DNA of 43,753 nucleotides, taken from positions 1-43,753 of the forward strand of contig NZ_BJDL01000032.1 of NCBI RefSeq assembly GCF_005405125.1, in the 5' to 3' direction. Source of the DNA: Lactiplantibacillus songbeiensis. Lineage in GTDB: Bacteria > Bacillota > Bacilli > Lactobacillales > Lactobacillaceae. The translations under genes were made by a program, and so were the position numbers. Positions 1-22,935 of this stretch are shown piece after piece. Position 1 is the stretch's first letter. Every line of letters begins with the position of its first letter. Below the pieces are notes generated by a model that worked only from the letters and a program-made list of their open reading frames with translations, was not told the origin of the DNA and searched no databases.

Positions 1-76
1 CGGCTTGGAAGACCGCACTTTGGCTTCCAAACGCGGCCACCACGTTCCAGCCGATTCTGGCCCAACCAGAGTGGCA
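1..76 (-). repeat. R0: partial copy of structured intergenic repeat
   Basis: Right-hand part of a copy of the R family (full copies at R1-R6, R8, R9). The copy is cut by the window start. The internal P2 hairpin is intact: TTGGAAG at 5-11 pairs with CTTCCAA at 24-30 around the conserved loop. It is followed by the conserved GGCCACCACGTTCCAGC block and the outer stem strand ending GAGTGGCAA. Confidence 0.85.
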
Positions 77-126
77 AGTTACGCGCAATGGCCGTGAAGC
101 TGTCAGCTGTTTAACTGAAACTCTGG

Positions 127-155
127 TTGTTTCAAAGCCAGTTCTGTGCTAATCT
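127..155 (+). promoter_or_regulatory. Predicted promoter of asnS T-box transcript
   Basis: TTGTTT at 127-132, a 17 nt spacer and TAATCT at 150-155. It lies just upstream of the T-box leader, so the transcript would begin near 162. Read by eye from sigma-A consensus; not experimentally supported. Confidence 0.5.
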
Positions 156-164
156 AACAATAGT

Positions 165-445
165 TATATATCATTAAAAACAATAACAGCGGATAACGCC
201 ACATCGAAAACACCGTTTTAGCGAACTAAGGATAGTGCAAGCTTAGTCGAGTGACCGATGCTGGATAACCCCGTTGCTGTTGCGGGCTGAAAGATAGCGA
301 GTAAGCCTAGCCGTGTCCACCACGTTATCAAGTGGGAGCGTATGTTAGTACGTGAGTTAAAGTTGATTTTTAATTTAAAAATAATTTGGGTGGTACCGCG
401 GAAAGACCTTTCGTCCCTTGTGATAGGGATGATGGGTCTTTTTTG
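165..445 (+). promoter_or_regulatory. T-box riboswitch leader upstream of asnS
   Basis: The leader carries the canonical T-box sequence GGGTGGTACCGCGG at 388-401. It is followed at once by a terminator hairpin (arms about 402-418 and 423-440) and a T run ending near 445. In T-box leaders, uncharged tRNA pairs with a specifier codon in stem I and, through its 3' end, with the TGGN of the T-box, and this favours the antiterminator. An AAC triplet that could be the Asn specifier lies at 267-269, but I could not fold stem I by hand to confirm its position. The location directly upstream of an asparaginyl-tRNA synthetase gene fits Asn starvation control. Confidence 0.9.
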
Positions 446-467
446 TACCACACGAAAGGGGTATATT

Positions 468-1859
468 ATGCAGGAAGTGTTAGTTAAAGATTTATTCGCT
501 GGCGAACAAATCGCCGAAGACGTGACTGTTGCCTTGACCGGTTGGGTTAAGACTGTGCGGGGATCTAAGCGTGTTGGGTTCATTGAATTAAGTGATGGGA
601 CAACCATCAAGAATGCCCAAATCGTCATGCAAAGTGATTTGGATAACTATGACGACTTGAAGAAGTTGCCATTAAGTTCCACGATCCGGGTTGAAGGTAC
701 GGTCGTTTATACGCCCGATGCCAAACAACCTTTTGAAATTCATGCCGAAAAAATTACTTTAGAAGGGGCTTCTGATAACGACTATCCGTTACAAAAAAAG
801 AAGCATTCGTATGAATATTTGCGGACGATGGCACATTTACGTCCTCGGACCAACACGTTTTATGCGGTGTTCCGGATTCGCTCATTAGCTGCTTTTGCCA
901 TTCACCAGTATTTGCAAGAACATGGTTTCACCTACGTTAACACTCCAATTATCACCAGCAGTGATAGTGAAGGTGCCGGTGAAATGTTCCGGGTCACGAC
1001 TTTGGACATGAACAACTTACCAAAGACGGACGACGGTAAAGTGGATGACAGCAAAGATTTCTTCAAGAAAGAAACCAACTTAACGGTTAGTGGTCAATTG
1101 CCAGTTGAATCGTTTGCCTTAGCTTTACGGAACGTTTATACCTTTGGCCCAACTTTCCGGGCTGAAAACTCACATACGTCTCGGCACGCTAGTGAATTCT
1201 GGATGATCGAACCTGAAATGGCCTTTGCTGATTTGGATGACACGATTGCCGTCTCCGAAGAATTACTGAAGTATGTGGTTAGTTACTTATTAGACCATGC
1301 CAAAGACGAACTCGATTTCTTGAATGGTGCTGTTGATGAACACTTACTCGATCGGTTACACAACACGATTGATGAAAAGTTCGCGCGGATTACGTATACG
1401 CAGGCGATTGAAGAATTGAAGAAAGCCCCAGTTAAGTTCGATGTGCCCGTCTCATGGGGCTTGGACTTACAAGCTGAACATGAACGTTATTTGTGTGAAC
1501 AAGTTTATAAACGGCCAACGTTCTTAACCGATTACCCACGCGAAATCAAAGCATTCTACATGCGTGATAACGATGACGGTAAGACGGTTGCGGCCGCGGA
1601 CTTGTTAGTGCCACAAATCGGTGAATTAATTGGTGGGAGCCAACGTGAAGAACGGCAGGCCCAATTAGCTGAAAAGATTAAAGAATACAACTTGCCACCC
1701 GAAGAATACGCTTGGTATTTGGAACTTCGGAAGTACGGTGAAACTGTACATTCTGGTTTCGGGATTGGCTTTGAACGTCTCTTGATGTATGTCACTGGGA
1801 TGGAAAACATTCGCGATGTGATCCCTTACCCACGGACACCAGGGAACGCTGAATTTTAA
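468..1859 (+). CDS. asnS: Asparaginyl-tRNA synthetase
   Basis: 463 aa class IIb aminoacyl-tRNA synthetase that charges tRNA-Asn in the cytoplasm. Residues about 19-110 form the OB-fold anticodon-binding domain ([18 protein letters not shown]). Motif 2 is seen near residues 228-248 ([11 protein letters not shown]). Motif 3 is near 425-440 ([12 protein letters not shown]). The end TPGNAEF is typical of AsnRS. The ATG at 468 is chosen because AAAGGGG lies about 8 nt upstream and the terminator of the T-box ends just before it. The longer open frame from 342 runs through the T-box and is not coding. Transcription is controlled by the T-box and ends at the hairpin at 1872-1903. Confidence 0.96.
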
Positions 1860-1871
1860 TCAGGTAATAAT

Positions 1872-1903
1872 GATTCCTCGCAATTATTGCGGGGAATTTT
1901 TTT
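1872..1903 (+). terminator. Intrinsic terminator of asnS
   Basis: ATTCCTCGCAA and TTGCGGGGAAT form an 11 bp stem with one wobble pair and a short loop, followed by seven T. It lies 13 nt after the asnS stop. Confidence 0.9.
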
Positions 1904-1942
1904 GTCATAATCCTTTGAAAAGGATAGGGTTCGGATTAATTT

Positions 1943-2095
1943 GCCGCTCCGGGTGGCCGGGATTGACGCTGGAACGTGGTGGCCACGTTTGCAAGCCACA
2001 GGGCGGTCTTGCAAGCCGGGCTTTGACTAATCCGAGAAACCCACTCGGCTAAGTCAAATTTCACCACTGAGCGTCATCCAGTCCGCCCTGCGCTA
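1943..2095 (+). repeat. R1: structured intergenic repeat, forward orientation
   Basis: A full copy of the R family. The outer stem pairs GGATTGACGCT with AGCGTCATCC. Inside it GTGGTG (1976-1981) pairs with CACCAC (2062-2067). P2 is TTGCAAG 1989-1995 with CTTGCAA 2008-2014. P3 is TTTGACT 2022-2028 with AGTCAAA 2052-2058, plus CCGAG/CTCGG. An open frame of about 60 codons overlaps it, but it has no ribosome binding site and repeats no known protein. Confidence 0.85.
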
Positions 2096-2345
2096 GTTGA
2101 GTGCCAGCTAATGAATTAGTATTATTGACTAAATAGGTTGATTTTGCGTTGTAGATCTGGTCGTCATGGTTATGTTGATTACTGGTAAGTTAGTGATTAG
2201 TCTCAATTCGGATAGTGTTTAAATTGAAATTCACGGAATACTTGGTGTTAGTTAGGCTAAGGGTTACTTTCCAACGATACGGTTGACTATTTTAGACATT
2301 AACCTCTAATTATACTGGTAGCTTCATAGCATCGACTTAATTAAC
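2096..2345. other. Spacer between R1 and R2, no gene seen
   Basis: AT-rich spacer between the convergent asnS and MerR genes. I see no ribosome binding site with an open frame, no strong hairpin and no recognisable gene remnant. Confidence 0.5.
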
Positions 2346-2491
2346 GTCGGGCGGTCCAGAATTGGCTCAGTGGTGTCGTTTGACTTAGCCGGTGACTTTC
2401 CGGGTTAGTCAAAGCCCGGCTTATGAGACCGCACTGTGGCTCATAAACGCGGCCACCACATTCCAGCCGATTCTGGGCCAACCAGAGTGGC
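2346..2491 (-). repeat. R2: structured intergenic repeat, reverse orientation
   Basis: Reverse-oriented R copy, facing R1. The outer stem pairs CCAGAATTGGCT (2356-2367) with AGCCGATTCTGG (2465-2476). P3 arms are TTTGACTTA and TAGTCAAA with CCGG/CCGG inside. P2 is TTATGAG 2421-2427 with CTCATAA 2440-2446. It ends about 24 bp after the stop codon of the MerR gene. Confidence 0.85.
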
Positions 2492-2515
2492 AAAAAAACG
2501 CTAACTTAGAATTGG

Positions 2516-3322
2516 TTATTGAAGTTGATATTGCAAGCGGACTAAATCTGAAGCACCCTTACTAGTGAATTGTTCGTCCAGGTTCATTTGCCAGAGTTGG
2601 TCGCTAATTTTGAGCTGCTTTTTCTGGATGTATTCGGCTAAAATCTGTAAGGAAACACAGATATTTTTCATATCGTTAGTCGTGTCGATGGCCACATATT
2701 GACCGGCCGGCTTTTGCAATAATGGCAGGTCTCCCGTATCGGTACGGGCATCAATGGCTTTTAAGATACAAAAGGATGCGGTGGGATAACCGTTGGCGTC
2801 ACTCTGAGGTAATTGCGTCAAAAAGCCAGAATCCTGCTGGTTGACTAGCTTGAGCTTACCTAATTGGGCATAAAAGTCCGTGTAGATTTCGGCGACTTCA
2901 GCTTCGGTACAGGCGACTGATTGGCGTGAGCGACAGAACTGGGTGGCTGGAGCGGTGGTGATGAATGGCTGATTCCGGGCCACGGATTCAGTTGGTGTCA
3001 CTTGATCAAAGCGCGTCTGTAAGGTTGTCTTAAGGATGCTTAAATGGTCAATCTGTTCATCAATCTTGGCTAAGATAGCTTTTAAGTCCGTGTCTAGTGA
3101 GTTGGTCCGCCGGTCATTGTTTAGTTGTTGAATGGCAGCAATCGACAGCCCTAAGTGCCGTAATTCTAAAATAAAAGTCAATTCGTAAAGTTGGTCGTAG
3201 GCATAATACCGGTAGCCATTTTCAGCGACCCGTTTGGGCTTAAACAAGCCCTTTTCATCATAAAAAATTAGTGTCCGCCGGGTCGTCCCCGCTAACTGGG
3301 CAAATTTCTGAATAGTTAACAT
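2516..3322 (-). CDS. MerR family transcriptional regulator with effector-binding domain
   Basis: 268 aa. Residues 2-70 are a MerR winged helix-turn-helix (LTIQKFAQLAGTTRRTLIFY, then NGYRYY). Residues about 75-108 form the dimerising coiled coil. Residues about 110-268 resemble the GyrI-like/BmrR-type effector-binding fold, so the signal is probably a small hydrophobic compound; the ligand is unknown. ATG at 3322 is preferred over TTG at 3325 because GAGGTG lies 5 nt upstream of the ATG. It is divergent from the MDR dehydrogenase at 3414, with a MerR-type operator between them at 3344-3374, so it most likely activates that operon. Confidence 0.9.
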   Translation of the reverse strand: MLTIQKFAQLAGTTRRTLIFYDEKGLFKPKRVAENGYRYYAYDQLYELTFILELRHLGLSIAAIQQLNNDRRTNSLDTDLKAILAKIDEQIDHLSILKTTLQTRFDQVTPTESVARNQPFITTAPATQFCRSRQSVACTEAEVAEIYTDFYAQLGKLKLVNQQDSGFLTQLPQSDANGYPTASFCILKAIDARTDTGDLPLLQKPAGQYVAIDTTNDMKNICVSLQILAEYIQKKQLKISDQLWQMNLDEQFTSKGASDLVRLQYQLQ

Positions 3323-3343
3323 CAAAGCACCTCAAATTAAAAC

Positions 3344-3374
3344 TTGACTGTAACGTTACGTTACACTCTATACT
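3344..3374 (+). promoter_or_regulatory. MerR-type promoter/operator with 19 bp spacer
   Basis: TTGACT (3344-3349) and TATACT (3369-3374) are separated by 19 bp, longer than the usual 17. The spacer contains the perfect palindrome GTAACGT-T-ACGTTAC at 3350-3364. This is the classic arrangement in which a MerR regulator untwists an over-long spacer. It drives the genes at 3414 and 4351. Confidence 0.85.
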
Positions 3375-3413
3375 TAGTTTATTGAAAAAGCAAAATAATT
3401 GGAGGATGATTTT

Positions 3414-4358
3414 ATGCGTGCAGTAGTTATTGATAAGCCTGGAGATCCTGATGTGATGCACTTAGTTAACCGGCCCATTCCAGTGGCAACTGACCATCAG
3501 TCCGTGATGCGGATTCATGCGTTTGGCGTCCATCGCTATGAAGCTTTGACCCGAGCAGGCGGGTCGCCTTCAGTTAAGTTTCCCCGGGTAATTGGGGTCG
3601 AAGCTGTTGGTGAGATCGATCAAGTTTCAGCCAATAGTTCCTTAAAAGTTGGTCAAAAAGTCGTGACGATGATGGGCGGCTTTGGTCGAGAAGTCGATGG
3701 CAGTTATCAAGATTATGCGTTGGTCGATGATGTGAATCTATATCCGGTTGATTTCGATGGTGATTGGGTGACCTTAGCGCAATACCCAGAAAACTTTTAC
3801 ACGGCAATGGGGGCCATTGACTCACTAAAGTTAAAAGCAGGTCAAACGTTATTAGTTCGTGGTGGGACAAGTGCAGTTGGGCTAGCGGCAATCAAGTTAG
3901 CCAAAGTCATGGGCTTAACGGTTACAGCCACAACGCGCCGGCAACCGCAATTAGCCGCACTGATCGATAATGGCGCGGATCAAGCGGTGTTAGATGTTGG
4001 TAATCAATTGGATACGGATGCACAGTTCGATGGGATCATTGATCTAGTCGGGACGGTCACGTTAACAAATTCGATTGCCCATCTGAATCCTGGTGGCGGG
4101 GTTTCTTTAGTTGGCTTGTTAGCGGGCGAATGGGTTGTTAAGAACTTCAATCCTTTCACGTTGGCCGGCAAGACGTTAACCGTCTTTGATTCCACGGACG
4201 TTCAGCAATCGCTGATTGATGAAATGTTCAAATTGATCAATCAGTATCATCTTTCAATCCCAATTGCACGGGTCTTTAAACTTGAAGATATCGTGGCAGC
4301 GCATGAATATGTGATGGCGAGCCGTGAATTGGGTCAAGTCATTGTGGATAATGACTGA
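3414..4358 (+). CDS. NADPH:quinone oxidoreductase-like MDR family protein
   Basis: 314 aa zinc-independent medium-chain dehydrogenase/reductase. The N-terminal GroES-like domain starts MRAVVIDKPGDPDVM. The Rossmann NADPH-binding segment is near residues 143-165 (LLVRGGTSAVGLAAIKLAK). I see no catalytic or structural zinc cysteines, which is typical of quinone reductases and enoyl reductases of this group. ATG at 3414 follows GGAGG at 3401-3405 with 8 nt spacing. It is controlled by the divergent MerR protein and overlaps the next gene by 8 nt. A role in redox or electrophile detoxification is inferred from family and regulator. Confidence 0.87.
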   Translation: MRAVVIDKPGDPDVMHLVNRPIPVATDHQSVMRIHAFGVHRYEALTRAGGSPSVKFPRVIGVEAVGEIDQVSANSSLKVGQKVVTMMGGFGREVDGSYQDYALVDDVNLYPVDFDGDWVTLAQYPENFYTAMGAIDSLKLKAGQTLLVRGGTSAVGLAAIKLAKVMGLTVTATTRRQPQLAALIDNGADQAVLDVGNQLDTDAQFDGIIDLVGTVTLTNSIAHLNPGGGVSLVGLLAGEWVVKNFNPFTLAGKTLTVFDSTDVQQSLIDEMFKLINQYHLSIPIARVFKLEDIVAAHEYVMASRELGQVIVDND

Positions 4359-4692
4359 AAATGACCTGATTAAGCTGGTGCTTGCCCAGACGGATGGGTA
4401 TCTGGATTTTCCATTTAATCGGCCTGGTCAAAAGGCAACGGTTATTTTCTCAGTCATTAAGCACCATCGTAATGGTAAAATCATCGCGATGGTCTATACC
4501 CAGGATGGGCAAGTGTTGATTGATGTTAAATTAACGCCGGCTCAAAATGAAGCATTGCGCTTATCAGCGGGCGTCGAACCGGGGCGTCATCTGAATAACC
4601 GATATTGGACGACGATTAAGGTTAACGTGACGGTAGTTTCAACTGTCGAATTGAAAAATATTATTAGGGAAAGCGCGCGGTTGACGCGTTAA
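4351..4692 (+). CDS. MmcQ/YjbR-like protein
   Basis: 113 aa with the compact YjbR pattern: an early FPF motif (residues about 19-23), basic KHHRNGK, and a late NNRYWTTIKVN segment before a C-terminal helix. The family has a CyaY-like double-wing fold, is often annotated as DNA-binding, and has no firm biochemical role. The ATG at 4351 overlaps the 3' end of the MDR gene and there is no clear Shine-Dalgarno, so it is probably translationally coupled. A longer start at 4324 (TTG) is less likely. The shared operon suggests the same MerR control. Confidence 0.75.
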   Translation: MTENDLIKLVLAQTDGYLDFPFNRPGQKATVIFSVIKHHRNGKIIAMVYTQDGQVLIDVKLTPAQNEALRLSAGVEPGRHLNNRYWTTIKVNVTVVSTVELKNIIRESARLTR

Positions 4693-4706
4693 GAATTAAA
4701 TTTAAG

Positions 4707-4747
4707 GTAGCTAAAACTTGTAGCATAGTGCGTTTTAGCTACTTTTT
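4707..4747 (+). terminator. Intrinsic terminator
   Basis: GTAGCTAAAAC (4707-4717) and GTTTTAGCTAC (4732-4742) form a perfect 11 bp stem followed by TTTTT. It ends the MDR-YjbR operon. Confidence 0.93.
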
Positions 4748-4809
4748 GTGTGCTTAAATTGTTTTTATTCACAAAAGGAATTGTCGCTGTTAAAAAAGTA
4801 TGTTATTTT

Positions 4810-4843
4810 GTTGTTAACCAATAAACAAATAAAGGTTAACAAC
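4810..4843 (+). promoter_or_regulatory. BirA (biotin repressor) operator
   Basis: GTTGTTAACC (4810-4819) and GGTTAACAAC (4834-4843) are perfect inverted repeats separated by 14 bp. This matches the known Firmicutes BirA box (TTGTTAACC-N14-GGTTAACAA). It lies 15 bp before the bioY start, so biotinyl-AMP-bound BirA would repress bioY. Confidence 0.9.
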
Positions 4844-4858
4844 TTAGGAGTGAGTTAA

Positions 4859-5416
4859 ATGGACAAATCAACGGTACCGCTGACATCACGCACGATTACC
4901 CAAATGGGTTTATTCTTAGCACTAATTATTGTTTCAGGCATGTTTGCATTACCCATCCCCGGATTGGGGGTGCCGGTCGTGCTACAAAATATGGTCATTA
5001 TGCTAGCCGGGAGCCTACTGGGAAAGAAGGTAGGTCTGTTGACGAATGGCCTCTTTTTATTATTGGCTTTCGCTGGGCTACCTTTATTAGCTGGTGGTCG
5101 TGGGGGTGCGGCGGTTTTCTTAAGTCCCAGTAGTGGCTTTTTGTTAGGTTATCTAGTTTGTGTGCCAGTCATTAGCAGTTTATCAGGCTGGCTTGGAACT
5201 CAGCACTTCTGGCAGTTGTTTATTGTCTATGTCATCGGTGGCGCCCTGTGTATTAACTTTTTTGGCAGTTTTTCGTTAGCTTACTATAGTCATTTAAGCT
5301 GGGTAAACGGCTTGAAGATGGCGGCAGCTTTTGTGCCCTTGGATATGGTCAAAGCCGCTTTGGCAGCATGGTTACAATTACGGTTGCAAGGCATCTTACA
5401 TTTTGAAACTAAATGA
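4859..5416 (+). CDS. bioY: Biotin transporter S component BioY
   Basis: 185 aa integral membrane protein with about six hydrophobic segments. BioY features are visible: the N-terminal TQMGLFLALIIVSG helix, IPGLGVPVVLQNMVIMLAG, GLPLLAGGRGG and SPSSGFLLGY. It is the substrate-binding subunit of a group II ECF transporter and uses the shared EcfAA'T module, which is encoded elsewhere. ATG at 4859 follows TTAGGAGTGAG. It is a single-gene unit under a BirA box, so uptake is expected to rise when biotin is scarce. Confidence 0.95.
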   Translation: MDKSTVPLTSRTITQMGLFLALIIVSGMFALPIPGLGVPVVLQNMVIMLAGSLLGKKVGLLTNGLFLLLAFAGLPLLAGGRGGAAVFLSPSSGFLLGYLVCVPVISSLSGWLGTQHFWQLFIVYVIGGALCINFFGSFSLAYYSHLSWVNGLKMAAAFVPLDMVKAALAAWLQLRLQGILHFETK

Positions 5417-5436
5417 TGGGCTATGTTTTTTAGCAC

Positions 5437-5484
5437 TCAAAAAAGCTACTCATGACAAGCAATCCGCTTATCATGAGTAGCTTT
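5437..5484 (-). terminator. Bidirectional terminator between bioY and hflX
   Basis: AAAGCTACTCATGA (5442-5455) and TCATGAGTAGCTTT (5471-5484) form a 14 bp perfect stem. The run of six T is on the minus strand, so it serves mainly hflX. It could also stop bioY transcripts. Confidence 0.85.
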
Positions 5485-5499
5485 AGTTAACCTATCAGC

Positions 5500-6786
5500 T
5501 TAAGCTGGGGTGACAATATATTTAGCATAGCGTTGGGCATCAACAGCGTTCAGTTCCACGGTGAGTTGCGTCCCGTCAGCCAAGTAATCAGTCTTTAAAA
5601 TATTGGCATGGTCGTTCAAGTAAGCCACCACATCACCATCATTGAATGGAATCAAGAGGGTCGTCGTGATGTAATCCTTGAAGACTTTCGCTTTGATCAT
5701 CTTGGTCAACACTTGAATGGATTTTCCATCCTTAGCCGCGTAAATCAATTGGTCATCGGTTTGGTTCGGATAATTAGCTTCAGTCAGATCGGCTTTGTTG
5801 TAGGCATACAACATTGGCACATCGTGGACGCCGATTGCTTTTAAGGTTTCTTCCGTCGTCGCCATCATTTCCTTGTAATGTGGGTCGGCATAGTCGATGA
5901 CTTGGATCAATAAGTCAGCGTTAGCGGCCTCAGATAAGGTCGAACGGAAAGCATTGATCAAGTTATGCGGCAAGTTGCTGACAAACCCAACGGTATCACT
6001 CAATAACAATTGTTTGTTATCAGGAAAAGTCAATTGGCGAATGCTGGTATCCAAGGTGGCGAACAGCATGTTCTTTTCAAAGACTTGCTTATCTTCACCC
6101 TTACCAAAGAGCTTGACTAAGCCGTTCATCGTTGTTGACTTCCCAGCGTTGGTATAGCCGACTAATGCGACGTTTGGTAGCCCGGCCTTATCACGTTGTG
6201 CCCGGCGAACTTCTTCATCTTTGTTCAATTCCTTTAGTTCATGCTTGGCGTGGCTAATCCGATCTTGAATCGTCCGACGATTTAATTCAAGTTGGGTTTC
6301 ACCAGAACCACGGTTGGTAAAGCCCCCGCCACCACCAGCAGCGGCCCCGGCTTGTTGGTCCAGCCGGTTAGAAATGCTAGTCCGTAAACGTGGTAATTGA
6401 TATTGTAATTGGGCAATCTTAACTTGTAACTTGGCTTCTTTACTACGAGCGCGGTTACCGAAAATTTCCAAAATCAATCCTGTGCGGTCGATGATTTGTA
6501 ATCCAGTCTCGGTCTCTAAGTTCCGAATCTGACTAGGGGTCAAATCAGCGTTGACAATCATGATGTTCAGTTCCTTGGCTTCCGCCATTTCTTTAATTTC
6601 GACAACTTTCCCTTTACCGAAGAAAGTCGCAGGATTGGGTTTTTCTAAGTTTTGATCGATGCGTAAAGCCGCTTCCATGTGGTTCGCTTCGACTAACGCT
6701 TCTAGCTCTGACATCGCGTAGTCATAGTTGGCGACGGTTTTGTTCATGCCGGCGATAATGACTGGTTGGATAAATGTTTCGGACAT
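5500..6786 (-). CDS. hflX: GTPase HflX
   Basis: 428 aa ribosome-associated GTPase that rescues or splits stalled ribosomes in stress. The N-terminal HflX domain (about 1-185) contains the PNPATFFGKGKV segment, and a glycine-rich stretch precedes RGSGETQLELNRR. G1 is GYTNAGKST (about 205-213), G3 is DTVGF (about 262-266) and G4 is NKAD (about 330). ATG at 6786 follows AGGAG. It is divergent from the Nudix gene, and their promoters overlap in the short spacer. Confidence 0.95.
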   Translation of the reverse strand: MSETFIQPVIIAGMNKTVANYDYAMSELEALVEANHMEAALRIDQNLEKPNPATFFGKGKVVEIKEMAEAKELNIMIVNADLTPSQIRNLETETGLQIIDRTGLILEIFGNRARSKEAKLQVKIAQLQYQLPRLRTSISNRLDQQAGAAAGGGGGFTNRGSGETQLELNRRTIQDRISHAKHELKELNKDEEVRRAQRDKAGLPNVALVGYTNAGKSTTMNGLVKLFGKGEDKQVFEKNMLFATLDTSIRQLTFPDNKQLLLSDTVGFVSNLPHNLINAFRSTLSEAANADLLIQVIDYADPHYKEMMATTEETLKAIGVHDVPMLYAYNKADLTEANYPNQTDDQLIYAAKDGKSIQVLTKMIKAKVFKDYITTTLLIPFNDGDVVAYLNDHANILKTDYLADGTQLTVELNAVDAQRYAKYIVTPA

Positions 6787-6873
6787 TCAATCACGCTCCT
6801 CATGTTATAGTAGTTTAAGTATAACATGGCGCATCGAAATATTAATGATGTGAGTATTATGGGAGTGATAAGA

Positions 6874-7311: not shown

Positions 7312-7335
7312 ACTTGACGGGTAATTTTAAATTTG

Positions 7336-7437
7336 CTAGAGTAAGGGTATTAATTAAATAATAACTGTCGCCGGACAGCGTGCGTCAACTTCCATAGGTC
7401 ATTGCGGAAGTTGGCAATCGTTGGCCGGCTTTTTATT
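7336..7437 (+). promoter_or_regulatory. Structured leader with terminator before SMR gene
   Basis: A nested structure directly precedes the SMR ribosome binding site. Outer arms GCCGG (7370-7374) and CCGGC (7425-7429) enclose a perfect 8 bp hairpin, CAACTTCC (7386-7393) with GGAAGTTG (7406-7413). A T-rich run follows, and AGGAGG begins only about 10 nt after the stem. A terminator this close to the Shine-Dalgarno of its own gene suggests attenuation or a riboswitch expression platform. SugE-type exporters are often controlled by guanidine riboswitches, but I could not match the guanidine-I consensus. Confidence 0.5.
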
Positions 7438-7767: not shown

Positions 7768-7780
7768 CGACGGGTAAAAA

Positions 7781-7930
7781 CGCTCCGGTTGGGCTGGATT
7801 GACGCTGGAACGTGGTGGCCACGTTTGCGAGCCAAAGTGCGGTCTCGCAAGCCGGGCTTTTACTAGGTCGGAAAGCCCATCCAACCAAGTGAAATTTCAC
7901 CACTGAGCATCATCCAGCCCAACCTGCGCT
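7781..7930 (+). repeat. R3: structured intergenic repeat, forward orientation
   Basis: Unpaired full copy. The outer stem is the longest perfect one: GGTTGGGCTGGAT near the left end pairs with ATCCAGCCCAACC at 7912-7924. P2 is TTGCGAG 7825-7831 with CTCGCAA 7844-7850. P3 is weaker, with several wobble pairs. It lies between the convergent SMR and histidine phosphatase genes. Confidence 0.85.
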
Positions 7931-8010
7931 AAATAGTAGTCAACGAGTATGCTGTTTAATGGTAGTAGATAGAATTTAGTCATTAAAAGTGTATATGATG
8001 AACGATGTCT

Positions 8011-9374: not shown

Positions 9375-9458
9375 TTTGGGACTCCTTATTTGAATACTGT
9401 AATAGTCAATTCCAACTCTACTATTCTATCATACGCTGGTAAAAGTTTCCGCTTACCA

Positions 9459-9595
9459 GATGCCTTACGAAATGCTGGAACGCGGTGGGTCATTTGGAAG
9501 CCTTAAAAGGCGGTCTTCCAAGATGACCTTGGTCTAAGCCTGAGAAAAGCACTCAGACTAAGACCAACGACACGGCTGAGCATTTTGTGAGGCCT
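9459..9595 (+). repeat. R4: structured intergenic repeat, forward orientation
   Basis: Outer stem AAATGCT (left) with AGCATTT (right), extended by GCCT..AC against GT..AGGC. P2 is longer than in R1-R3: GGTCATTTGGAAG pairs with CTTCCAAGATGACC. P3 is TTGGTCT..CTGAG with CTCAG..AGACCAA. The right end has ACACGGCTGAGC in place of CACCACTGAGC, so R4 and R8 form a sub-family. Confidence 0.85.
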
Positions 9596-9634
9596 CCTCT
9601 CGGCTAAGATAATTGTTACTGATTAATTTATACT

Positions 9635-9685: not shown

Positions 9686-9760
9686 AATTCATATTGGATA
9701 GTCAGCAAACAACTCATCGTTAATATTGCCGACCATTGATAAATAGTTCAATTTAGTTAA

Positions 9761-9908
9761 CGCCGGGCGGGCCAGAATTGGCTCAGTGGTGTCGTTTATC
9801 TTAGTCGGTGATTTTCCGACTTAGATAAAGCCCGGCTTGCGAGACCGAACTTTGGCTCGCAAACGCGGCCACCACGTTCCAGCCGATTCTGGGCCAACCA
9901 GAGTGGCA
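9761..9908 (-). repeat. R5: structured intergenic repeat, reverse orientation
   Basis: Opposed to R4. Outer stem GGGCCAGAATTGGCT with AGCCGATTCTGGGCC. P3 is almost perfect: TTTATCTTAGTCGG with CCGACTTAGATAAA. P2 is TTGCGAG 9837-9843 with CTCGCAA 9856-9862. It ends 7 bp from the antiporter stop codon, so it lies in that mRNA's 3' end. Confidence 0.87.
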
Positions 9909-13727: not shown

Positions 13728-13874
13728 GCCACTCTGGTTGGACCAGAATCGGCCGGAACATGGTGGACGTGTTTTGAAGCTCAGGGCGGTCTTCTACAAG
13801 CCAGGGGTTATCTAAGTTGGAAAATCACCAACTAAGATAAACGACACTACTGAGCCAATTCTGGTCCGCCCGTC
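13728..13874 (+). repeat. R6: structured intergenic repeat, forward orientation
   Basis: Outer stem GGACCAGAATCGGC with GCCAATTCTGGTCC. P3 is TTATCTAAGTTGG with CCAACTAAGATAA, almost perfect. P2 is decayed in this copy (TTTTGAAG against CTTCTACAA, one extra base). It lies upstream of the divergent dedA and helD genes. Confidence 0.83.
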
Positions 13875-14115
13875 GTTAATGAACGGGTCTTTATAACTGA
13901 ACGATTATGTTTCACCAGTTGTTTTAGTTGTGTCGTTGATCTTGGTGTTCCAACGCGTTAGAAGTTAACCGGTAGGCATTGTCACAAGTCCCAGGCATCA
14001 TAGCTGATTTTAAGATAGGTTAAACCTTCCTGATCAAAGTAATCAGCTACATATAATAAGTTGGCAGGCATCTTGATTTATTTTTAAACATAATCTTCAA
14101 TGAACGTAGTCGTAA
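13875..14115. other. Spacer between R6 and R7
   Basis: No convincing gene. The minus strand has a 29-codon open stretch (14071-13982, starting MPANLLYVADYFDQEG) without a ribosome binding site. It could be a gene scrap or chance. Confidence 0.4.
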
Positions 14116-14338
14116 GCGCAGGGCGGGCTGGATGACGCTCAGTGGTGTCGTTTGACTTGCTGAAACGTGTTCGGCCCAACTGCTCCCTGTGCTTGCTACG
14201 CCATGTCAACTACTCGGAAGTGCGCCGAGTATTCGACATAGCTAGGCAATGCTCAGGAGCAACCCGTTGGACCTCACACTCTTGGCTCGCAAACGTGGCC
14301 ACCACGATCCAGCGTCAATCCAGCCCAACCGCAGCGGC
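14116..14338 (-). repeat. R7: hybrid R element carrying a 113 bp hairpin
   Basis: Both R ends are intact: GCTGGATGACGCTCAGTGGTG on the left pairs with the segment around CCACGATCCAGCGTCAATCC on the right. The middle of the element is replaced by a different long palindrome at 14167-14279. Its arms of about 50 nt include CCAAC/GTTGG, TGCTCC/GGAGCA, ATGTC/GACAT and TACTCGG/CCGAGTA. The 3' arm of P3 and the 5' arm of P2 are missing. Confidence 0.8.
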
Positions 14339-14456
14339 AATTAAAACCAATTCCGGCTATCCACCTTACAAAAGCACATGAACATGGCTTATTGATTGAG
14401 TCTACGCGCTGAAAGGGCTATAATTATTGTTCGATATTTATGAATGGAGGACGCTA

Positions 14457-16763: not shown

Positions 16764-16770
16764 TGGATTT

Positions 16771-16800
16771 AGTCGGAGCATATTTTGCGCCGACTTTTTT
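16771..16800 (+). terminator. Intrinsic terminator of helD
   Basis: AGTCGG and CCGACT with an extra GC/GC pair form a short stem followed by six T. Confidence 0.85.
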
Positions 16801-16857
16801 AGAATTAGGTGTATATGAAAATTAGTACTAAGAAATTTCAAAAAAATGCATAACTAA

Positions 16858-16907
16858 TCATCAGCGTGATAACTGTCTTCGGATAGTTGTTGTGCTGATT
16901 TTTTTCT
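16858..16907 (+). terminator. Second terminator-like hairpin
   Basis: ATCAGC..ATAACTGTC and GGATAGTT..GCTGAT form an imperfect long hairpin with a TTC loop, followed by TTTTTTT. It may be a back-up terminator for helD or the end of an unrecognised short transcript. Confidence 0.65.
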
Positions 16908-17386
16908 GAACGGCTTTTATGTTTTGTCCCGGATAAATTTTGGTTAGACGCTTGCAGGGTTGCGGATCTTACCCAGTTCAGCGTCAATCTGAGCCAAGAC
17001 GGATTCTTGATTTTTAAGATTTTTTTACGTTTGAAAAGGATTGGATGGTAATCATAATGTGACCAATCAATCCTAGTGGTAGATAGCGCTATCATTGAAA
17101 TAAATTAATTTGTTTTAGGTAGCGTTGCTTAATCGGGATGGTCATTTGAAATAAAGTTGAACTTTGAAATCTGATGAAACTGATAAAAGTTTAATTTCAA
17201 ATCGCAATAATTGATACTACATAGGCGACAAACGATGATAATGCCAATCTTGAATAAGGTAAAACTATTGGGATTAATTCGAATTTTATAATAGTCATGA
17301 TGGTGTAAACACCGTTTAATTAATGCTGATAATATTAATTTGAAGACGATTTAATGTTTTATTTTTAGCAAAATTTGTAAGACGTT
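16908..17386. other. AT-rich spacer before the cell-surface cluster
   Basis: About 480 bp with no convincing gene on either strand. Open frames here lack ribosome binding sites. It probably holds upstream control sequences of the surface cluster, which I cannot resolve. Confidence 0.5.
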
Positions 17387-17415
17387 TTGTCACGCTAACC
17401 GACTTAAAATAATGT
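17387..17415 (+). promoter_or_regulatory. Predicted promoter of the cell-surface cluster
   Basis: TTGTCA (17387-17392), a 17 nt spacer and TAATGT (17410-17415), 55 bp before the first gene of the cluster. Confidence 0.5.
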
Positions 17416-17469
17416 AACATAATCGATGTGGAAATTTTATACACAAATATATTGAAAGGAGTGATGCGT

Positions 17470-20187
17470 ATGTCGTGTCGGCAATTATGGTACCGGAGTG
17501 GTCTAAGTTTAGCGTTGACAATTGGCGTGGTCAGTTACCTGGAACCACAAGCGACTATTTTTGCGATACCCCAATCGCAAGCGAGCGTTAATCAATCGAT
17601 GTCGTCGATTGGAAGTGTGTTTTCAGATGGAAAATCAGAATTATCGAGTGCATCTAGTCGTCAGGCCACCCAATCCTTATCTGAATCACAGGTGGAGAAG
17701 CAACCGGTAGATCAGCGCGATTCGGAATTAAGTCGTCGTGAAAGTACAACGCAGGAAAGCGTTAATAAAGTTCAACAATCAGAAACAGCCATTACGCGGG
17801 CGACGGGGATGGTTAACGGCACTGTTAAACTGACATTAGATGCAGACGGAACGTTACATTTAAGCGGTGGTTCGTTCGGCAGCTCGGTTGGAAATAATAC
17901 AACTGAGGGCTGGATTGCCCAAGCGTTGACGGCTAATGACAAGAGTCCGGCTCAGGTTTTAAAAGTCGTGATTGATGGGCGAATTACGACCAGCAGCATT
18001 AATAGTTACGATTATTTGTTTGCAGGGTTAGTTAACTTAACCAATATTGATGGTTTAGCCAATTTAGACCTCTCGAATGTGACTAGCTTAAAGTATCTGT
18101 TCAAAGAAGATCAACACTTGCAGCAAGTTGATTTCGGTCAGCAAAATTTTTCAAAAGTTCAGAGTTTTGAAGGCATGTTCTATGACTGCTTGGCGTTGAC
18201 CAATATTGCTAATATCGGTCAGTGGCAAATGACGAGTGCCACGAATCTCGCTTACATGTTTTACAAAGCAAGTTCATTAACGACACTTGCCATTGATAAA
18301 TGGAATACAAGTCGCGTGACAAATTTGCAATATACCTTTGGCTACTGCTCGGCATTAACGATGTTGGATGTTGCTGATTGGGACACGCGGAATGTCACGA
18401 TAATGAGCAAGACTTTTAGGGGATTGACCAATATAAAGTCATTGCCAATCGACAAGTGGCAAACTGGACGTGTCTATGACATGCAACTCATTTTTGCTAA
18501 TGACACGAGTTTGGAAACCGTAAATGTTGGTAACTGGGATACGAGTCAGGTGGAGTCACTAGATAACGCCTTTGCCAGAATGACGAGTCTAACGACATTG
18601 CCAATTGAGAACTGGAACACAAGTAATTTAACGCGTATGCAAGGAACGTTTTCCAATTTAACCAATTTAACAACGCTACCAATTGGTAAGTGGGATGTCA
18701 GTCACGTGACTACGTTGGATGCGACCTTCCTAAATTGTGCCAAATTAACGACGTTACCGGTCGCTAATTGGAATACGCAAAGCAATGAAAGACTGGGTTC
18801 TACTTTTGCAGGAATGAGTCGTCTAACGACGTTGCCAGTCGATAATTGGAATACGCAGAATGTTCAGGATATGAGTGCGACTTTTTCAGGGGTCAGCAGC
18901 CTAACGACGTTGCCAGTCGCGAATTGGAATACGCAGAATGTTAAAAACATGAATGCTACTTTTGCAGAAATGCAGCAGGTTGCGGCGTTACCAATTGATA
19001 ATTGGCATACGGGAAGAGTCACAACAATGGCGGGGACTTTTCAACATGTCACCAAAGTGGGAAAGCTGCCGATTGATAAGTGGGATACGAGTCAAGTGAC
19101 TAACATGACGCAACTATTTTTGGGTGACGCTCAGTTAACAAGTTTGCCAATCGCTAATTGGAATACTAGTTCGGCGACTGATTTCTCGCAGATGTTTGCG
19201 GCGTGTTCGGGACTACGGACGCTAAATCTTGGTAACTGGAACACGGCTAACGTGACCAATTATGAATCCACATTTGCAAATACTAATCTGGAAAAACTTG
19301 ATTTGCAGAGTTGGAATACAACTAATGCCCAAAGTTATACCAACGCTTTTAGTGGAAAGCTGCCACCTAAACGACTTTTGTTGGGTAAAAGCTTTAAATT
19401 CCATAATAGTACTGACTGGAAATTACCGGACCCTAGTCATGAAGCACCCTACGTCGGCAGATGGCATAGTCTGAATGACAACAAAGTGTATACGTCGACT
19501 GATTTGATGACTAAGTACGATGGTACCAATATTGTTGGTGAATTCGAATGGGCGACTGGGCAAACCATTACGGTGAAATACGTGGGCGCCGATGGTAAGT
19601 CCTTGGCGCCGGATACTAAGATCTCGGGTATAACCGGTGAAGACTACCATGTTAAGCCAATTGAGATTGAAGGTTATCAGCCTGATCAACCTGATGGGGT
19701 TCGGGGGGCCTTTAAAGACAAAGATGAAACCATTACATTAACGTACAGCTCTGGTAATCTCATGTTTGTTTCGGCCCCTAAAACAATCGATTTTGGCAAC
19801 AATCCAATTACTGGTCAATCAGAAGATTATGGTGCCACGTATGACACCGGATTGGTGATTCAGGATAACCGGTCGCTGGGTTCGACTTGGTCATTAACTG
19901 CAACCCTTGCGGCTAACGGCTTTAAGGGAGAAACGTCCGCACGGTCATTAGCAGCGGTGCTTAGTTATAAAGATCAACAGACGGGCAATGAGGTGCCATT
20001 GATTCCAGGTGTTTCCAATTTAGTTGTTAATGATCATCACACCGTTTCAAATCAGGGTGTTAACGTACTTGGGTCAACGACGCCGCTTGGTACGTTGTAT
20101 TTAAAGGTCCCCACTGATCGCGTTTTAACGGATACGTACCAGACGACGGTAACTTGGACGCTCAATCAAGCCGTACCTAATCGGTGA
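17470..20187 (+). CDS. CscC-like surface protein: DUF285 repeats, MucBP, WxL domain
   Basis: About 905 aa secreted protein. A signal peptide covers roughly residues 1-35. A Ser/Gln-rich stretch (about 35-110) follows. Residues about 180-640 hold about 18 repeats of roughly 24 aa of the DUF285/BspA-like type (core LTTLPIDNWNT..NVT.M..TF). A MucBP-like module is at about 697-765 (ITVKYVGADGKSLAPDT). The C-terminal WxL domain (about 765-905) has WSL near 806 and WTL near 895, and binds the wall non-covalently. ATG 17470 is 8 nt after GGAG; ATG 17464 is only 2 nt away. Some neighbouring repeats (18800-18960) are nearly identical in DNA, suggesting recent expansion. It resembles CscC of the plantarum csc clusters; the glycan or host target is unknown. 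Confidence 0.87.
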   Translation: MSCRQLWYRSGLSLALTIGVVSYLEPQATIFAIPQSQASVNQSMSSIGSVFSDGKSELSSASSRQATQSLSESQVEKQPVDQRDSELSRRESTTQESVNKVQQSETAITRATGMVNGTVKLTLDADGTLHLSGGSFGSSVGNNTTEGWIAQALTANDKSPAQVLKVVIDGRITTSSINSYDYLFAGLVNLTNIDGLANLDLSNVTSLKYLFKEDQHLQQVDFGQQNFSKVQSFEGMFYDCLALTNIANIGQWQMTSATNLAYMFYKASSLTTLAIDKWNTSRVTNLQYTFGYCSALTMLDVADWDTRNVTIMSKTFRGLTNIKSLPIDKWQTGRVYDMQLIFANDTSLETVNVGNWDTSQVESLDNAFARMTSLTTLPIENWNTSNLTRMQGTFSNLTNLTTLPIGKWDVSHVTTLDATFLNCAKLTTLPVANWNTQSNERLGSTFAGMSRLTTLPVDNWNTQNVQDMSATFSGVSSLTTLPVANWNTQNVKNMNATFAEMQQVAALPIDNWHTGRVTTMAGTFQHVTKVGKLPIDKWDTSQVTNMTQLFLGDAQLTSLPIANWNTSSATDFSQMFAACSGLRTLNLGNWNTANVTNYESTFANTNLEKLDLQSWNTTNAQSYTNAFSGKLPPKRLLLGKSFKFHNSTDWKLPDPSHEAPYVGRWHSLNDNKVYTSTDLMTKYDGTNIVGEFEWATGQTITVKYVGADGKSLAPDTKISGITGEDYHVKPIEIEGYQPDQPDGVRGAFKDKDETITLTYSSGNLMFVSAPKTIDFGNNPITGQSEDYGATYDTGLVIQDNRSLGSTWSLTATLAANGFKGETSARSLAAVLSYKDQQTGNEVPLIPGVSNLVVNDHHTVSNQGVNVLGSTTPLGTLYLKVPTDRVLTDTYQTTVTWTLNQAVPNR

Positions 20188-20290
20188 TAAACGTTCGGTC
20201 AGTAGACTATCAATCAGCTTGGGCAGGTGAGTCAAAATTAGAAATGAGGTTTCGGCAAGATAACAGCGAGACGGAAAAGGGGTGGTGTTG

Positions 20291-20653
20291 GTGAAGTATT
20301 GGCGAGTCATCATAATTGGCATCAGTACGCTACTTTTGTGGGCGTGGGTGTCACCACCAATTGTTAGTATGGCCAGTACGGCCGATAGCCCGGCGACGAT
20401 TCGGTTTGCTGGGCAATCTGAGTCATCAACTCAAAGTGCTAGCGATGATCAATTACACGTGACTGAAACATCAAAATCCAGTCATTCAGAACCGAAGAAT
20501 AATCAGTCTAGCCCCCATCAGACGCACGGCTGGTTACCACAAACAAATGAACAGTGGTGGTTGAGTGCCTTCATAGGGGGCATTGGGTTACTGGTGATTT
20601 TAATTAGTTGGCAATTAATTACTTACTTAAAAAAGAGGAGTTCATTATTATGA
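20291..20653 (+). CDS. Small LPXTG-type surface protein (CscD-like)
   Basis: 120 aa. N-terminal signal segment of about 28 residues, a Ser/Thr-rich linker, then the sorting motif LPQTN at about 81-85, a hydrophobic helix (about 89-110) and KKRSSLL. This is a short sortase substrate, as CscD proteins are in csc clusters. GTG 20291 is chosen from AAAAGGGG 8 nt upstream; TTG 20288 is possible. Its stop codon overlaps the ATG of the next gene (ATGA), so the two are translationally coupled. Confidence 0.82.
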   Translation: MKYWRVIIIGISTLLLWAWVSPPIVSMASTADSPATIRFAGQSESSTQSASDDQLHVTETSKSSHSEPKNNQSSPHQTHGWLPQTNEQWWLSAFIGGIGLLVILISWQLITYLKKRSSLL

Positions 20654-21276
20654 AAAAAACACTATTAGGACTTTTATTTTCAGCAGCATTGATCGCAACA
20701 TCTGGTTTAGCAGCAAATGCTGCGGATACGCCACAAACGCCGCAAACGCCACAAACGTCACAAGGAACGGTTGGTTTTAAAGGCGGCTCGCTCACCATTG
20801 ATAATGGGGCTACGGACTTGAAAGGTGCCAGCTTGGATTTTGGGACGAATGATATTAAAGCTGCCGCTGAGGATGATAAATATGAGAATACGAACAAATC
20901 GGCTGCGGTCTCCGTAGTGGATTTACGGGGGACAGCCGAGGGTTGGAGTCTACAGGTTAAGCAAAATGAAGCCTTTCAAAATAAAGCTGCTGTGACTAAT
21001 AAAGTGTTAACCGGGGCAATTCTGACGTTGAATGGGGTCTTAGATGCAAGTGCCTCAACAACTGGTGCGGATGCAACCGTTAATAACGGTGTTTCCTTAG
21101 AGGCGCTCAATAGCGATAAAACGCTGATGGCTGCGCCGACGGGAAAGGGTAATGGTAAAAACGTGGCTGACATTAAAGCCTCAACCTTAATGGTACCACG
21201 CACAACGGCACGCTCTCAAGGGAGTTACATCACGACTTTAACTTGGAGTCTTAACGCCGCACCGGTAAATGAATAG
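20650..21276 (+). CDS. WxL domain surface protein (CscB-like)
   Basis: 208 aa. Signal peptide at residues 1 to about 27 (MKKTLLGLLFSAALIATSGL), then a short PQT repeat, then a single WxL domain with WSLQV near 97 and TLTWSLNAAP at the C-terminus. WxL domains attach to peptidoglycan and work with DUF916 partners. ATG 20650 follows GAGGAG and overlaps the previous stop by 4 nt. Confidence 0.88.
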   Translation: MKKTLLGLLFSAALIATSGLAANAADTPQTPQTPQTSQGTVGFKGGSLTIDNGATDLKGASLDFGTNDIKAAAEDDKYENTNKSAAVSVVDLRGTAEGWSLQVKQNEAFQNKAAVTNKVLTGAILTLNGVLDASASTTGADATVNNGVSLEALNSDKTLMAAPTGKGNGKNVADIKASTLMVPRTTARSQGSYITTLTWSLNAAPVNE

Positions 21277-21344
21277 AAAATACTGCTCTTAAAGGGGAAG
21301 GACTAGTTAATGTCACCTTCCAAATCATGATTAGGGGGAAAATG

Positions 21345-22385
21345 ATGTTAATGAAAAGATGGTGGCAGTGGGGAATCGGATTGTTGGTCGGGTTAGCCAT
21401 GCTTAGTTGGGGACAGTCTGGTTCGGCCAATTCGGTTGGTTTTGAAGTCGCACCGGTGGCGTCAAAGTATCAGGTAGACAAAGCCGTTTCATATTATGAT
21501 TTGAAATTGAAGCCTGATCAGACGACCACGCTTGCGGTTAGAATCACTAATACGAGCACGCAAGAAGTCACGGTCCATACTGGTGTGGCGACGGCGACCA
21601 CTAATCCTAATGGCGTCGTTGAATATCAGGCAGCGTCTACGGGTAAGAACATTGATTTACCGGTCAATGTGAGTCAGCTTATTACGACGACGGACGATAA
21701 GCTGACTTTGGCTAAAGGAACGAGTAAGCTTGTGACGTTCAAAGTGAAAATGCCGGCTCATAAGTATGACGGGGTCGTGGTCGGTGGGTTGAGTTTCTTA
21801 AAAAAGGCAGCGGGACAACAGCGTAAAAGCGCGATGGCAATCAAGAATCAATACGCGTATTCGGTTGCGGTCGTGTTGCATGGTGATCAGCCACTTGCTA
21901 AGAATCGGTTGACTTTGGGTAAGATCGATGCGACACAAAATAATGGTTATAACCAAATTAGTCTAGCCTTGCAAAATCGAACGGCGGCTTTTTTAAACCA
22001 GGTTAAAACTGATGTCAAGATTTATAGTCGTGGCGGTCATCAGGTACGTTATAAGCAAGTCAACCAACACGGACAGATTGCGCCTAACTCAGTTTATGAG
22101 TTACCATTGCGCGTTGGACGGAATGCGCTAAAGCCGGGAGCGTATACGGCTAAGGTGGCTGTAACGTCGAAAAAGCAGCACTGGACGTTTACGAAAGACT
22201 TTGAAATAACGAGTGCTCGTGCTAAGCAGCTCAATAAAACGGCGGTAATTGAACACCATGTCAATTGGTGGTTGTGGATCAGTCTAGGGTTGTTGACACT
22301 GATTTTATTGTGGGTGGCTTGGTATATTCACCGTAAGCAACAAAAAATCAAACGCTTAGAAGCACAACTTAAGGCTAAGAAATAA
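21345..22385 (+). CDS. DUF916/DUF3324 membrane-anchored surface protein (CscA-like)
   Basis: About 346 aa. Signal peptide (about 1-28), then a DUF916 domain (FEVAPVASKYQVDKAVSYYDL onward, to about 150), a DUF3324 domain (about 160-290), a C-terminal transmembrane helix (WWLWISLGLLTLILLWVAWY, about 302-323) and a basic tail. CscA proteins are the partners of WxL proteins; DUF916/DUF3324 are now thought to bridge WxL domains and peptidoglycan. AGGGGG (21333-21338) fits ATG 21345 best; ATG 21342 and 21327 are alternatives. It is the last gene of the four-gene cluster. Confidence 0.87.
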   Translation: MLMKRWWQWGIGLLVGLAMLSWGQSGSANSVGFEVAPVASKYQVDKAVSYYDLKLKPDQTTTLAVRITNTSTQEVTVHTGVATATTNPNGVVEYQAASTGKNIDLPVNVSQLITTTDDKLTLAKGTSKLVTFKVKMPAHKYDGVVVGGLSFLKKAAGQQRKSAMAIKNQYAYSVAVVLHGDQPLAKNRLTLGKIDATQNNGYNQISLALQNRTAAFLNQVKTDVKIYSRGGHQVRYKQVNQHGQIAPNSVYELPLRVGRNALKPGAYTAKVAVTSKKQHWTFTKDFEITSARAKQLNKTAVIEHHVNWWLWISLGLLTLILLWVAWYIHRKQQKIKRLEAQLKAKK

Positions 22386-22427
22386 TGGGCATTTGTGAAG
22401 AAAAAATCTAGTTGATTTAAGCACAGC

Positions 22428-22470
22428 AAAAAAAGATTGCCAAGTCATCTTGATTGGGCAATCTTTTTTT
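22428..22470 (+). terminator. Intrinsic terminator of the cell-surface cluster
   Basis: AAAAAAAGATTGCC and GGCAATCTTTTTTT form a 14 bp stem that includes the T run, so it can act in both directions. Confidence 0.92.
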
Positions 22471-22587
22471 ATACGGCAAATTAGTCATTGTCGAATAGCG
22501 TGAGGTCGACGAAAAATGGGTACTTCCAAGAAAATGGTGTGCTTGTTAACAATGTTTGACGCTTGGTGCTAGTTGAAATTGCCGCCT

Positions 22588-22735
22588 GCCGGTTGGTTCC
22601 TAAAACGCTGGAACGCCATGGGCCATTTTGAAGCCAAAGGGCGGTCTTCAAAACTGACCTTGGCCTAATCCCGAGCAGCCCACTCGCATTAAGGCCAACG
22701 ACACGGCTGAGCATTTTAGAAACCAACCTTTCGGC
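22588..22735 (+). repeat. R8: structured intergenic repeat, forward orientation
   Basis: Outer stem GGTTGGTTCCTAAAACGCT pairs with AGCATTTTAGAAACCAACC. P2 is TTTGAAG 22627-22633 with CTTCAAA 22646-22652, extended by GGCCAT/GTGACC-like pairing. P3 is TTGGCCT..CGAG with CTCG..AAGGCCAA. Same sub-family as R4 (ACACGGCTGAGC end). Confidence 0.87.
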
Positions 22736-22762
22736 TAAATAGCTGACTAAAATGAACAACCG

Positions 22763-22784
22763 TAAGTTATCAGATCTGATAACT
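22763..22784. repeat. 22 bp perfect palindrome between R8 and R9
   Basis: AAGTTATCAGA followed directly by its reverse complement TCTGATAACTT, with no loop. It marks the centre of the R8/R9 unit. Confidence 0.8.
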
Positions 22785-22787
22785 TAA

Positions 22788-22935
22788 CGTCGGGCGGTCC
22801 AGAATTGGCTCAGTGGTGTCGTTTGACTTAGTCGAGTGATTTTCTCAAGTGAGTCAAAGCTCGGCTTATGAGCCCGTTTTGTGGCTCATAAACGTGGCCA
22901 CCACGTTCCAGCCGATTCTGGACCAACCAGAGTGA
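22788..22935 (-). repeat. R9: structured intergenic repeat, reverse orientation
   Basis: Outer stem GGTCCAGAATTGGCT with AGCCGATTCTGGACC. P3 is TTTGACT..GAG with CTC..AGTCAAA. P2 is TTATGAG 22866-22872 with CTCATAA 22885-22891. It faces R8 inside the MITE-like unit. Confidence 0.86.

Follow-up and report, generated by a model that had tools for sequence, protein, structure and literature searches.

What is a repeat family whose copies differ in sequence and agree in shape, and at what stage would that shape have counted? The question is raised by a window of 43,753 nucleotides, the whole stretch of DNA analysed here, from Lactiplantibacillus songbeiensis (RefSeq assembly GCF_005405125.1, contig NZ_BJDL01000032.1), in which an earlier note had recognised ten copies, R0 to R9, of a repeat with a common three-stem plan. 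Judged by their sequence, these copies are parts of an IS982-type miniature inverted-repeat transposable element (MITE), of which they form the arms, in this genome and in that of a sister species. With modest confidence we favour a reading in which selection acted on the fold during the spread of the element, most likely on its DNA form, and each copy's fold has decayed neutrally after settling.

A covariance model trained on eight of the ten window copies recovered all ten, with no further window site at E 0.01, so the family and its plan stand. Four convergent pairs are formed by R1 (1944–2095, plus strand, 154.7 bits) and R2 (2342–2490, minus, 160.8 bits), R4 (9451–9606, plus, 122.9 bits) and R5 (9758–9906, minus, 162.3 bits), R6 (13729–13878, plus, 119.5 bits) and R7 (14114–14337, minus, 57.3 bits), and R8 (22584–22737, plus, 127.0 bits) and R9 (22785–22935, minus, 163.3 bits), the last two each with the three-stem fold. 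R3 (7780–7931, plus, 149.9 bits) is alone, and R0 (1–74, minus, 69.0 bits) is truncated at the contig edge. By sequence, R0, R2, R5, R6 and R9 belong to subfamily A, R4 and R8 to B, and R1, R3 and R7 to C. The positions first proposed were recovered with ends shifted by up to 11 bases, the most in R4; R7, previously taken for a plain copy, does belong to the family but is interrupted by a different repeat of 118 nt, described below.

Our sample of this genome comprises the window, 400 kb searched with the model at E 0.01 and a further 400 kb at E 0.001 (843,753 bp in total). It yielded 209 matches, nine of them opposite-strand overlaps that were dropped for a count of 200 copies and retained in the 102-match covariation, antisense-folding and A.A mismatch counts given below. 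At least 130 nt is preserved in 172 of the 200, and the copies occupy 3.4% of the sample. Neighbours less than 600 bp apart are convergent in 75 cases, tandem in 6 and divergent in none (n = 81). The genome G008, from a sister species (one enzyme is identical, and long aligned blocks are 88–97% alike), gave 33 convergent, 5 tandem and no divergent neighbours (n = 38), and in a sample from three further genomes (G019, G016 and G015) all 15 neighbours within 800 bp converge. Two convergent arms make up the unit. The earlier description of single repeats had a real family in hand and overlooked both this pairing and the place of the repeats within a transposable element. Linkers measure 33–53 bp in 49 of the 75 convergent pairs, and among 61 short-linker pairs from this genome and its sister, with C counted as A, 54 join A to B, six A to A and one B to B. 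Compared over 159 bp, the halves of the R8/R9 unit agree at 67%.

That unit displays the whole arrangement. An 8-bp target-site duplication, AATGTTTG (22551–22558), is followed by the left terminal inverted repeat ACGCTTGGTGCTAGTTG (22559–22575, plus strand), R8, a 47-bp linker (22738–22784), R9, a right terminal repeat identical to the left at 17 of 17 positions (22946–22962, minus strand) and the second copy of AATGTTTG (22963–22970); the arms sit 8–10 bp inside the unit ends. The two copies had been correctly recognised, without the terminal repeats and duplication that flank them. Complete units of about 400 bp share this order of terminal repeat, arm, linker, opposed arm and terminal repeat, with a duplication of 7–12 bp outside, and their ends are the same 17-bp inverted repeat. 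Many span 386–407 bp; they are short, multi-copy and without a transposase gene. Units in G019 are about 1 kb long, with what appears by eye to be an IS982-like terminal repeat. With as many as four mismatches allowed, the first sample has 66 matches to the ACGCTTGGTGCTAGTTG ends, against 12 in simple shuffles; with as many as two, the songbeiensis genome has 181, against none for the reversed pattern. Direct repeats of 7–12 bp (one mismatch allowed from 8 bp, offset at most 1) flank 36 of 59 end-bounded stretches of 150–900 bp from this genome and its sister, against 24 of 3,422 in a mispaired-flank control. The 59 include four armless stretches, two sharing an end and four orthologous repeats; with these removed by hand, the count is 32 of 49. 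A search for an empty site, made from the left flank of R8/R9, found the right flank unmatched elsewhere.

The published ends of the IS982 family follow AC(N)6T(N)5TT, with duplications of 2–10 bp (PMC7335449). ACGCTTGGTGCTAGTTG fits this formula, which holds for the R8/R9 unit and for complete units of both genomes. Two intact IS982 genes (290 aa, no stop) in G014 have ACGCTTGGTGCTAGTTG-type ends: both ends of one copy are identical at 17 of 17 positions, and the other copy has one identical end and one with two mismatches. Because IS982-type ends, flanking duplications and an identical end on an intact insertion sequence (IS) coincide, we assign the arms to an IS982-type MITE. The remaining IS982 loci inspected in the genus mostly carry ACGCGT.GTGCTAGTT-like ends. 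By pattern, an IS982-like end lies within 200 bp of 92 of 180 arms here, 45 of 87 in the sister, three of three in both G009 and G014, and 12 of 20 in G019. The window also holds a decayed IS982-type IS (27179–28044) with terminal repeats at 27179–27195 (one mismatch) and 28028–28044 (four mismatches) and no flanking duplication seen; its transposase remnant (27212–27814, minus strand) has nine stop codons in its match to NF033520, and its scores of 59 bits (one piece) and 91.1 bits (genome search) fall short of the 130-bit cut-off. Derivation of the arms from the IS itself was considered and rejected: there is no sign of it, since no arm matched in 18 IS982 loci fetched from the genus.

The interior of this MITE covaries. 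Single-copy folds of R3 (z −7.1) and R5 (z −6.7) beat 200 of 200 shuffles. Changes on both sides of a pair occur at 25 of 51 predicted pairs among eight window copies and at 38 of 51 among 102 further matches from the same genome, in which 94.4% of cells are paired. In that larger alignment, which was fitted to the model, leans to structure and includes a few weak and opposite-strand rows, 615 cells are changed on both sides, compared with 195 in shuffles and at most 84 with slid partners, and sliding lowers pairing to at most 46%. Stem arms that differ and remain complementary, the central observation of the earlier note, are borne out far above both controls. The imperfections of the fold are conserved as well. 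Next to a T-A pair of P3, an A.A mismatch is retained in 311 of 342 rows that measure at least 130 nt, other species included (81/90, 83/88, 82/84, 26/35 and 39/45 in five alignments, in which a few rows are opposite-strand or the same place twice). The mismatch once described as TTAG does exist, as a single A.A within CTAAG/CTAAG. In P2, 206 of 256 sequences carry, by pattern search, a T flanked by GG and CT.

Is this fold maintained where the copies now reside? Orthologous arms in the sister genome allow an answer. Eighteen of 25 orthologous matches were compared, the seven excluded being five sites that differ in orientation or insertion, one arm with a block change and one opposite-strand duplicate. 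One-sided stem changes kept pairing in 15 cases and broke it in 34, a kept fraction of 0.31, against 0.35 (sd 0.06) in a neutral simulation using the substitution spectrum of the flanks. Compensated pairs numbered 2 against 0.76 expected (P = 0.165), and stems changed at 57 of 1,764 sites against 38 of 890 unpaired sites (Fisher P = 0.18, block-changed arm excluded). Since pairs break at the neutral rate in these arms, selection by the host does not maintain the fold in resident copies, and selection on the fold, as the earlier note saw it, does not extend to them. The bulk of the covariation was probably not accumulated in place. Of the nine both-sided kept pairs counted when the block-changed arm (L161:16159) is included, seven lie in blocks within it.

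We propose a model in which an IS982 transposase, supplied in trans, would have moved the unit, as its ends and duplications suggest. The fold would have been selected during this spread; the A.A mismatch, conserved in 311 of 342 rows, is our reason for thinking that shape counted at that stage. The selected form was most likely DNA near each end, as hairpins or a cruciform. Preferring DNA to RNA is the weakest step of the model, and we make it because the arms of R8/R9 lie 8–10 bp from the unit ends, extrusion would bring those ends near one another, and no sense-RNA signature was found. Folded DNA might shorten the path between the ends, or it might bind the transposase or a host factor. Two arms unlike in sequence and alike in shape may also keep the unit from becoming a long perfect palindrome. 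In resident copies the fold would decay neutrally. A stronger claim, that the arms are a module read by its structure and must fold, whether as DNA at the ends or as RNA, if the element is to spread, is one we offer tentatively, as possible and short of probable.

The interior does resemble a structured RNA, in its covariation as in its conserved internal features, and we give serious thought to an alternative, unlikely on present evidence, in which the arms act as predicted transcribed folds. The convergent layout presents a sense arm first to read-through from either side, and transcripts stopped or processed there could render insertions harmless. As a further possibility, transcription running outward from the linker would yield the antisense fold. 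Mispairs among the best 80 of 107 rows at first favour RNA, with 244 G.U against 107 A.C, but 195 of those 244 G.U cells are confined to three columns in which G.U is the common state, and setting aside subfamily-common states leaves 50 G.U against 84 A.C copies (41 against 50 column entries) on the sense strand. Of 169 sequences, 124 are at least as stable on the antisense strand when folded as RNA, which fits an outward transcript, and 147 when folded as DNA. Near R8/R9 there is one promoter-like site against 1.3 expected, and it lies outside the unit; gene context, too, is close to background (below). These strand data speak against a selected sense RNA and leave the antisense strand, as RNA or DNA, or a cruciform. 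Covariation might also arise with no selection on the fold, through hairpin-templated repair, template switching or gene conversion between copies combined with transposition. Resident copies, which show no selection on pairing, agree with this, as do the seven pairs changed in blocks at L161:16159, just as gene conversion would produce, and the single long structure, its ends paired, into which one strand of the R8/R9 unit folds (z −10.7). We rate this account as quite unlikely nonetheless, because correction within a hairpin would be expected to erase the P3 mismatch and the P2 T, and both persist at the frequencies given above.

An element useful to the host in cis, whether regulator, terminator or nucleoid site, and kept at each locus would explain why nearly all units lie between genes, with 4 of 59 overlapping an ORF call, and why arms diverge slightly less than their flanks. 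It is very improbable given the neutral rate of pair-breaking in orthologues, the several sister loci with lost, truncated or fused units, and the lack of a strong preference for any gene arrangement: of 49 placed units, 30 lie between co-directional, 10 between convergent and 9 between divergent genes, against 247, 47 and 48 for all neighbours (all gene-context counts come from our own ORF caller). A host RNA regulator kept in place was rejected as the main explanation on the same neutral pair-breaking and near-background context. Inverted repeat pairs resemble bacterial interspersed mosaic elements (BIMEs), and repeats like these or the related repetitive extragenic palindromes (REPs) could be moved by a Y1 transposase, either a REP-associated tyrosine transposase (RAYT) or an IS200-type enzyme. 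Y1 transposases do occur in 13 of the 21 genomes surveyed from the genus, with three matches here (G000:C24, C21 and C19). None matched in the arm-rich genomes G008, G014, G020 and G003, and the terminal repeats and duplications indicate a transposase of another kind. We give this origin almost no credence, and REP/BIME units with a RAYT are largely refuted by the ends and duplications.

Several results count against the reading we favour, that of an IS982-type MITE with a fold selected during spread. A ACGCTTGGTGCTAGTTG end lies within 60 bp of just 37 of 86 arms of at least 50 bits in this genome, duplications of 11 and 12 bp exceed the published 2–10 bp, and the sole IS982 match of the assembly is the decayed copy at 27179–28044. 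A MITE does not require an autonomous relative in each of its host genomes. In 14 other genomes an IS982-like end lies within 200 bp of 3 of 48 arms, against 103 of 1,023 random windows; the IS982 link is clear in some genomes of the genus and not shown for most. The tilt toward A.C and the better antisense folding could mean that the antisense strand was selected, not both. The in-place test depends on just 49 one-sided changes, and leaving out two decayed arms, a post hoc choice, leaves 8 kept and 22 broken, with 2 compensated pairs where 0.27 are expected (P = 0.021). Between the two species the arms differ by 3.6%, the upstream flanks by 4.4% and the downstream flanks by 6.7%, and indels are fewer in the arms, so a weak constraint on arms in place is possible.

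How far does the family extend? A survey of 41 genomes took in 21 of the genus, this one among them, and 20 others, 4 from the same family and 16 from the same order; it was run at E 1e-6 with stricter filters and up to 75 candidates scored per genome, and counts arms, not complete elements. Arms matched in 19 of the 21 genus genomes and in none of the 20 others. For the Lactobacillaceae genomes covered, this is the search that the earlier note suggested; the four outside the genus gave no match. Arm-rich genomes include G008, G014 and G020 (at least 75 matches each) and G003 (57). A model search of the whole songbeiensis genome, an assembly of 50 contigs, returned at least 150 matches; scaling the 844-kb sample gives roughly 600 full copies per genome, a rough extrapolation in that the sampled contigs were already known to contain copies. 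Plasmids and phages queried with the single arm R5 gave no match. A match to a described Rfam family had been named as grounds for abandoning the idea of a distinct family; Rfam gave none at the gathering threshold within the window, and a single chance-level match at a permissive threshold across 1900–2550. We found no description of the arms in literature titles and the beginnings of abstracts, although subscription papers were mostly outside reach, so that absence from print is not established.

In the usual view of MITEs, the ends enclose passive filler. Genomes with numerous short intergenic inverted-repeat elements are familiar from the neisserial Correia, pneumococcal BOX and RUP, and enterobacterial ERIC sequences, which are not known to have an inward-facing pair of three-way-junction arms with wide covariation. 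The closest relative in kind is MITECca01 of a Cardinium endosymbiont, an IS982-derived MITE with 169 copies, mostly intergenic, making up 3.5% of the chromosome (PMC9769881). It is likewise a high-copy MITE with IS982-family ends; it differs in being about 240 bp long and thought to derive from its parental IS, whereas no arm was found in our 18 IS982 loci. The term "secondary structure" is absent from that text (PMC9769881). ISs of the IS982 family, such as ISLpl4 of L. plantarum, have the same ends and duplications of variable length, and they are described in the relevant passages as autonomous, about 1 kb long and equipped with a transposase gene, which the unit lacks (PMC7335449). Intergenic structured repeats on Borrelia plasmids show compensatory changes and are treated beside MITEs in the passages seen; these are short stem-loops near lipoprotein genes, and the same passages mention no paired arms with terminal repeats (PMC2674063). 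IS982-derived high-copy MITEs are already known; what is new is the pairing of covarying three-way-junction arms.

Here the interior of a MITE covaries like a structured RNA and conserves its imperfections, yet is unprotected in place, so that selection on the fold at the level of the element and at that of the host can be separated. Whether a transposition system reads a folded interior becomes a question open to test, and the case cautions against taking covariation among dispersed repeats, on its own, as evidence for a host RNA. If the stronger claim holds and the arms must fold for spread, the element would be a transposon in which selection favours the shape of the non-coding interior during mobilisation and is lifted once a copy is resident.

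Comparison with the sister species gives some view of the fate of single units. Over 99 kb of a single contig with 13 units, a span test scored eight as present in the sister, one as absent, three as unclear and one as unplaced; inspection of six found some of these calls too generous. For the units at 17749 and 58238 remnants persist in the sister, for those at 31325, 43583 and 59843 no arm is recognisable there, and for the one at 85714 fused arms accompany an unrelated insert. At L149:17749–18200 and L153:5714–6094 (sister L261 and L265) unit sequence has been lost in the sister, through deletions that end within the outer arms and leave a short remnant or a fusion of two arms. An A/B unit is reversed between the genomes at L159:14364–14740 and sister L281:14236–14640; the inverted sister unit is the closest relative (0.926; next 0.913) and the linker is common to both, and this reversal suggests inversion in place. 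Another is reversed between L151:12443–12838 and sister L263:12081–12476; since the sister unit is not among the four nearest relatives, these may be independent insertions. Two arms also flank a gene at L151, which we take to be prs. An autonomous element enclosing its own gene was considered there and rejected, as the gene inside belongs to the host. The R8/R9 unit (22551–22970) and the sister unit L285:19513–19906 are separate insertions with abutting targets, AATGTTTG here and ATTAACAAC in the sister (GTTGTTAAT on the other strand), hinting at what may be an insertion hot spot.

The 118-nt repeat inside R7 (14162–14279, minus strand) is no part of the unit. It runs from GTGTGAGG to GAACACGTTTC as a long irregular hairpin, with 14 pattern matches in the 844-kb sample. 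The 28 distinct sequences collected over all loci show double changes at 27 of 40 pairs, with 93.9% of cells paired, for a fold predicted on the same alignment without a control. Rfam at a permissive threshold gave one chance-level match and none of relevance across 14050–14400. By eye, several copies begin at the stop codon of a gene (..TAGA|GTGTGAGG) and are followed by a ribosome-binding site and start codon. Elsewhere in the window, the surface-type protein encoded at 17428–20187 combines a MucBP domain with DUF285/BspA-like repeats, and its gene holds direct repeats spaced by 78 bp. Type I restriction genes for an R subunit and a specificity subunit, followed by a phage-integrase-family gene, occupy 35500–42341, with 75-nt repeats at 40596 and 41187 within the specificity gene.

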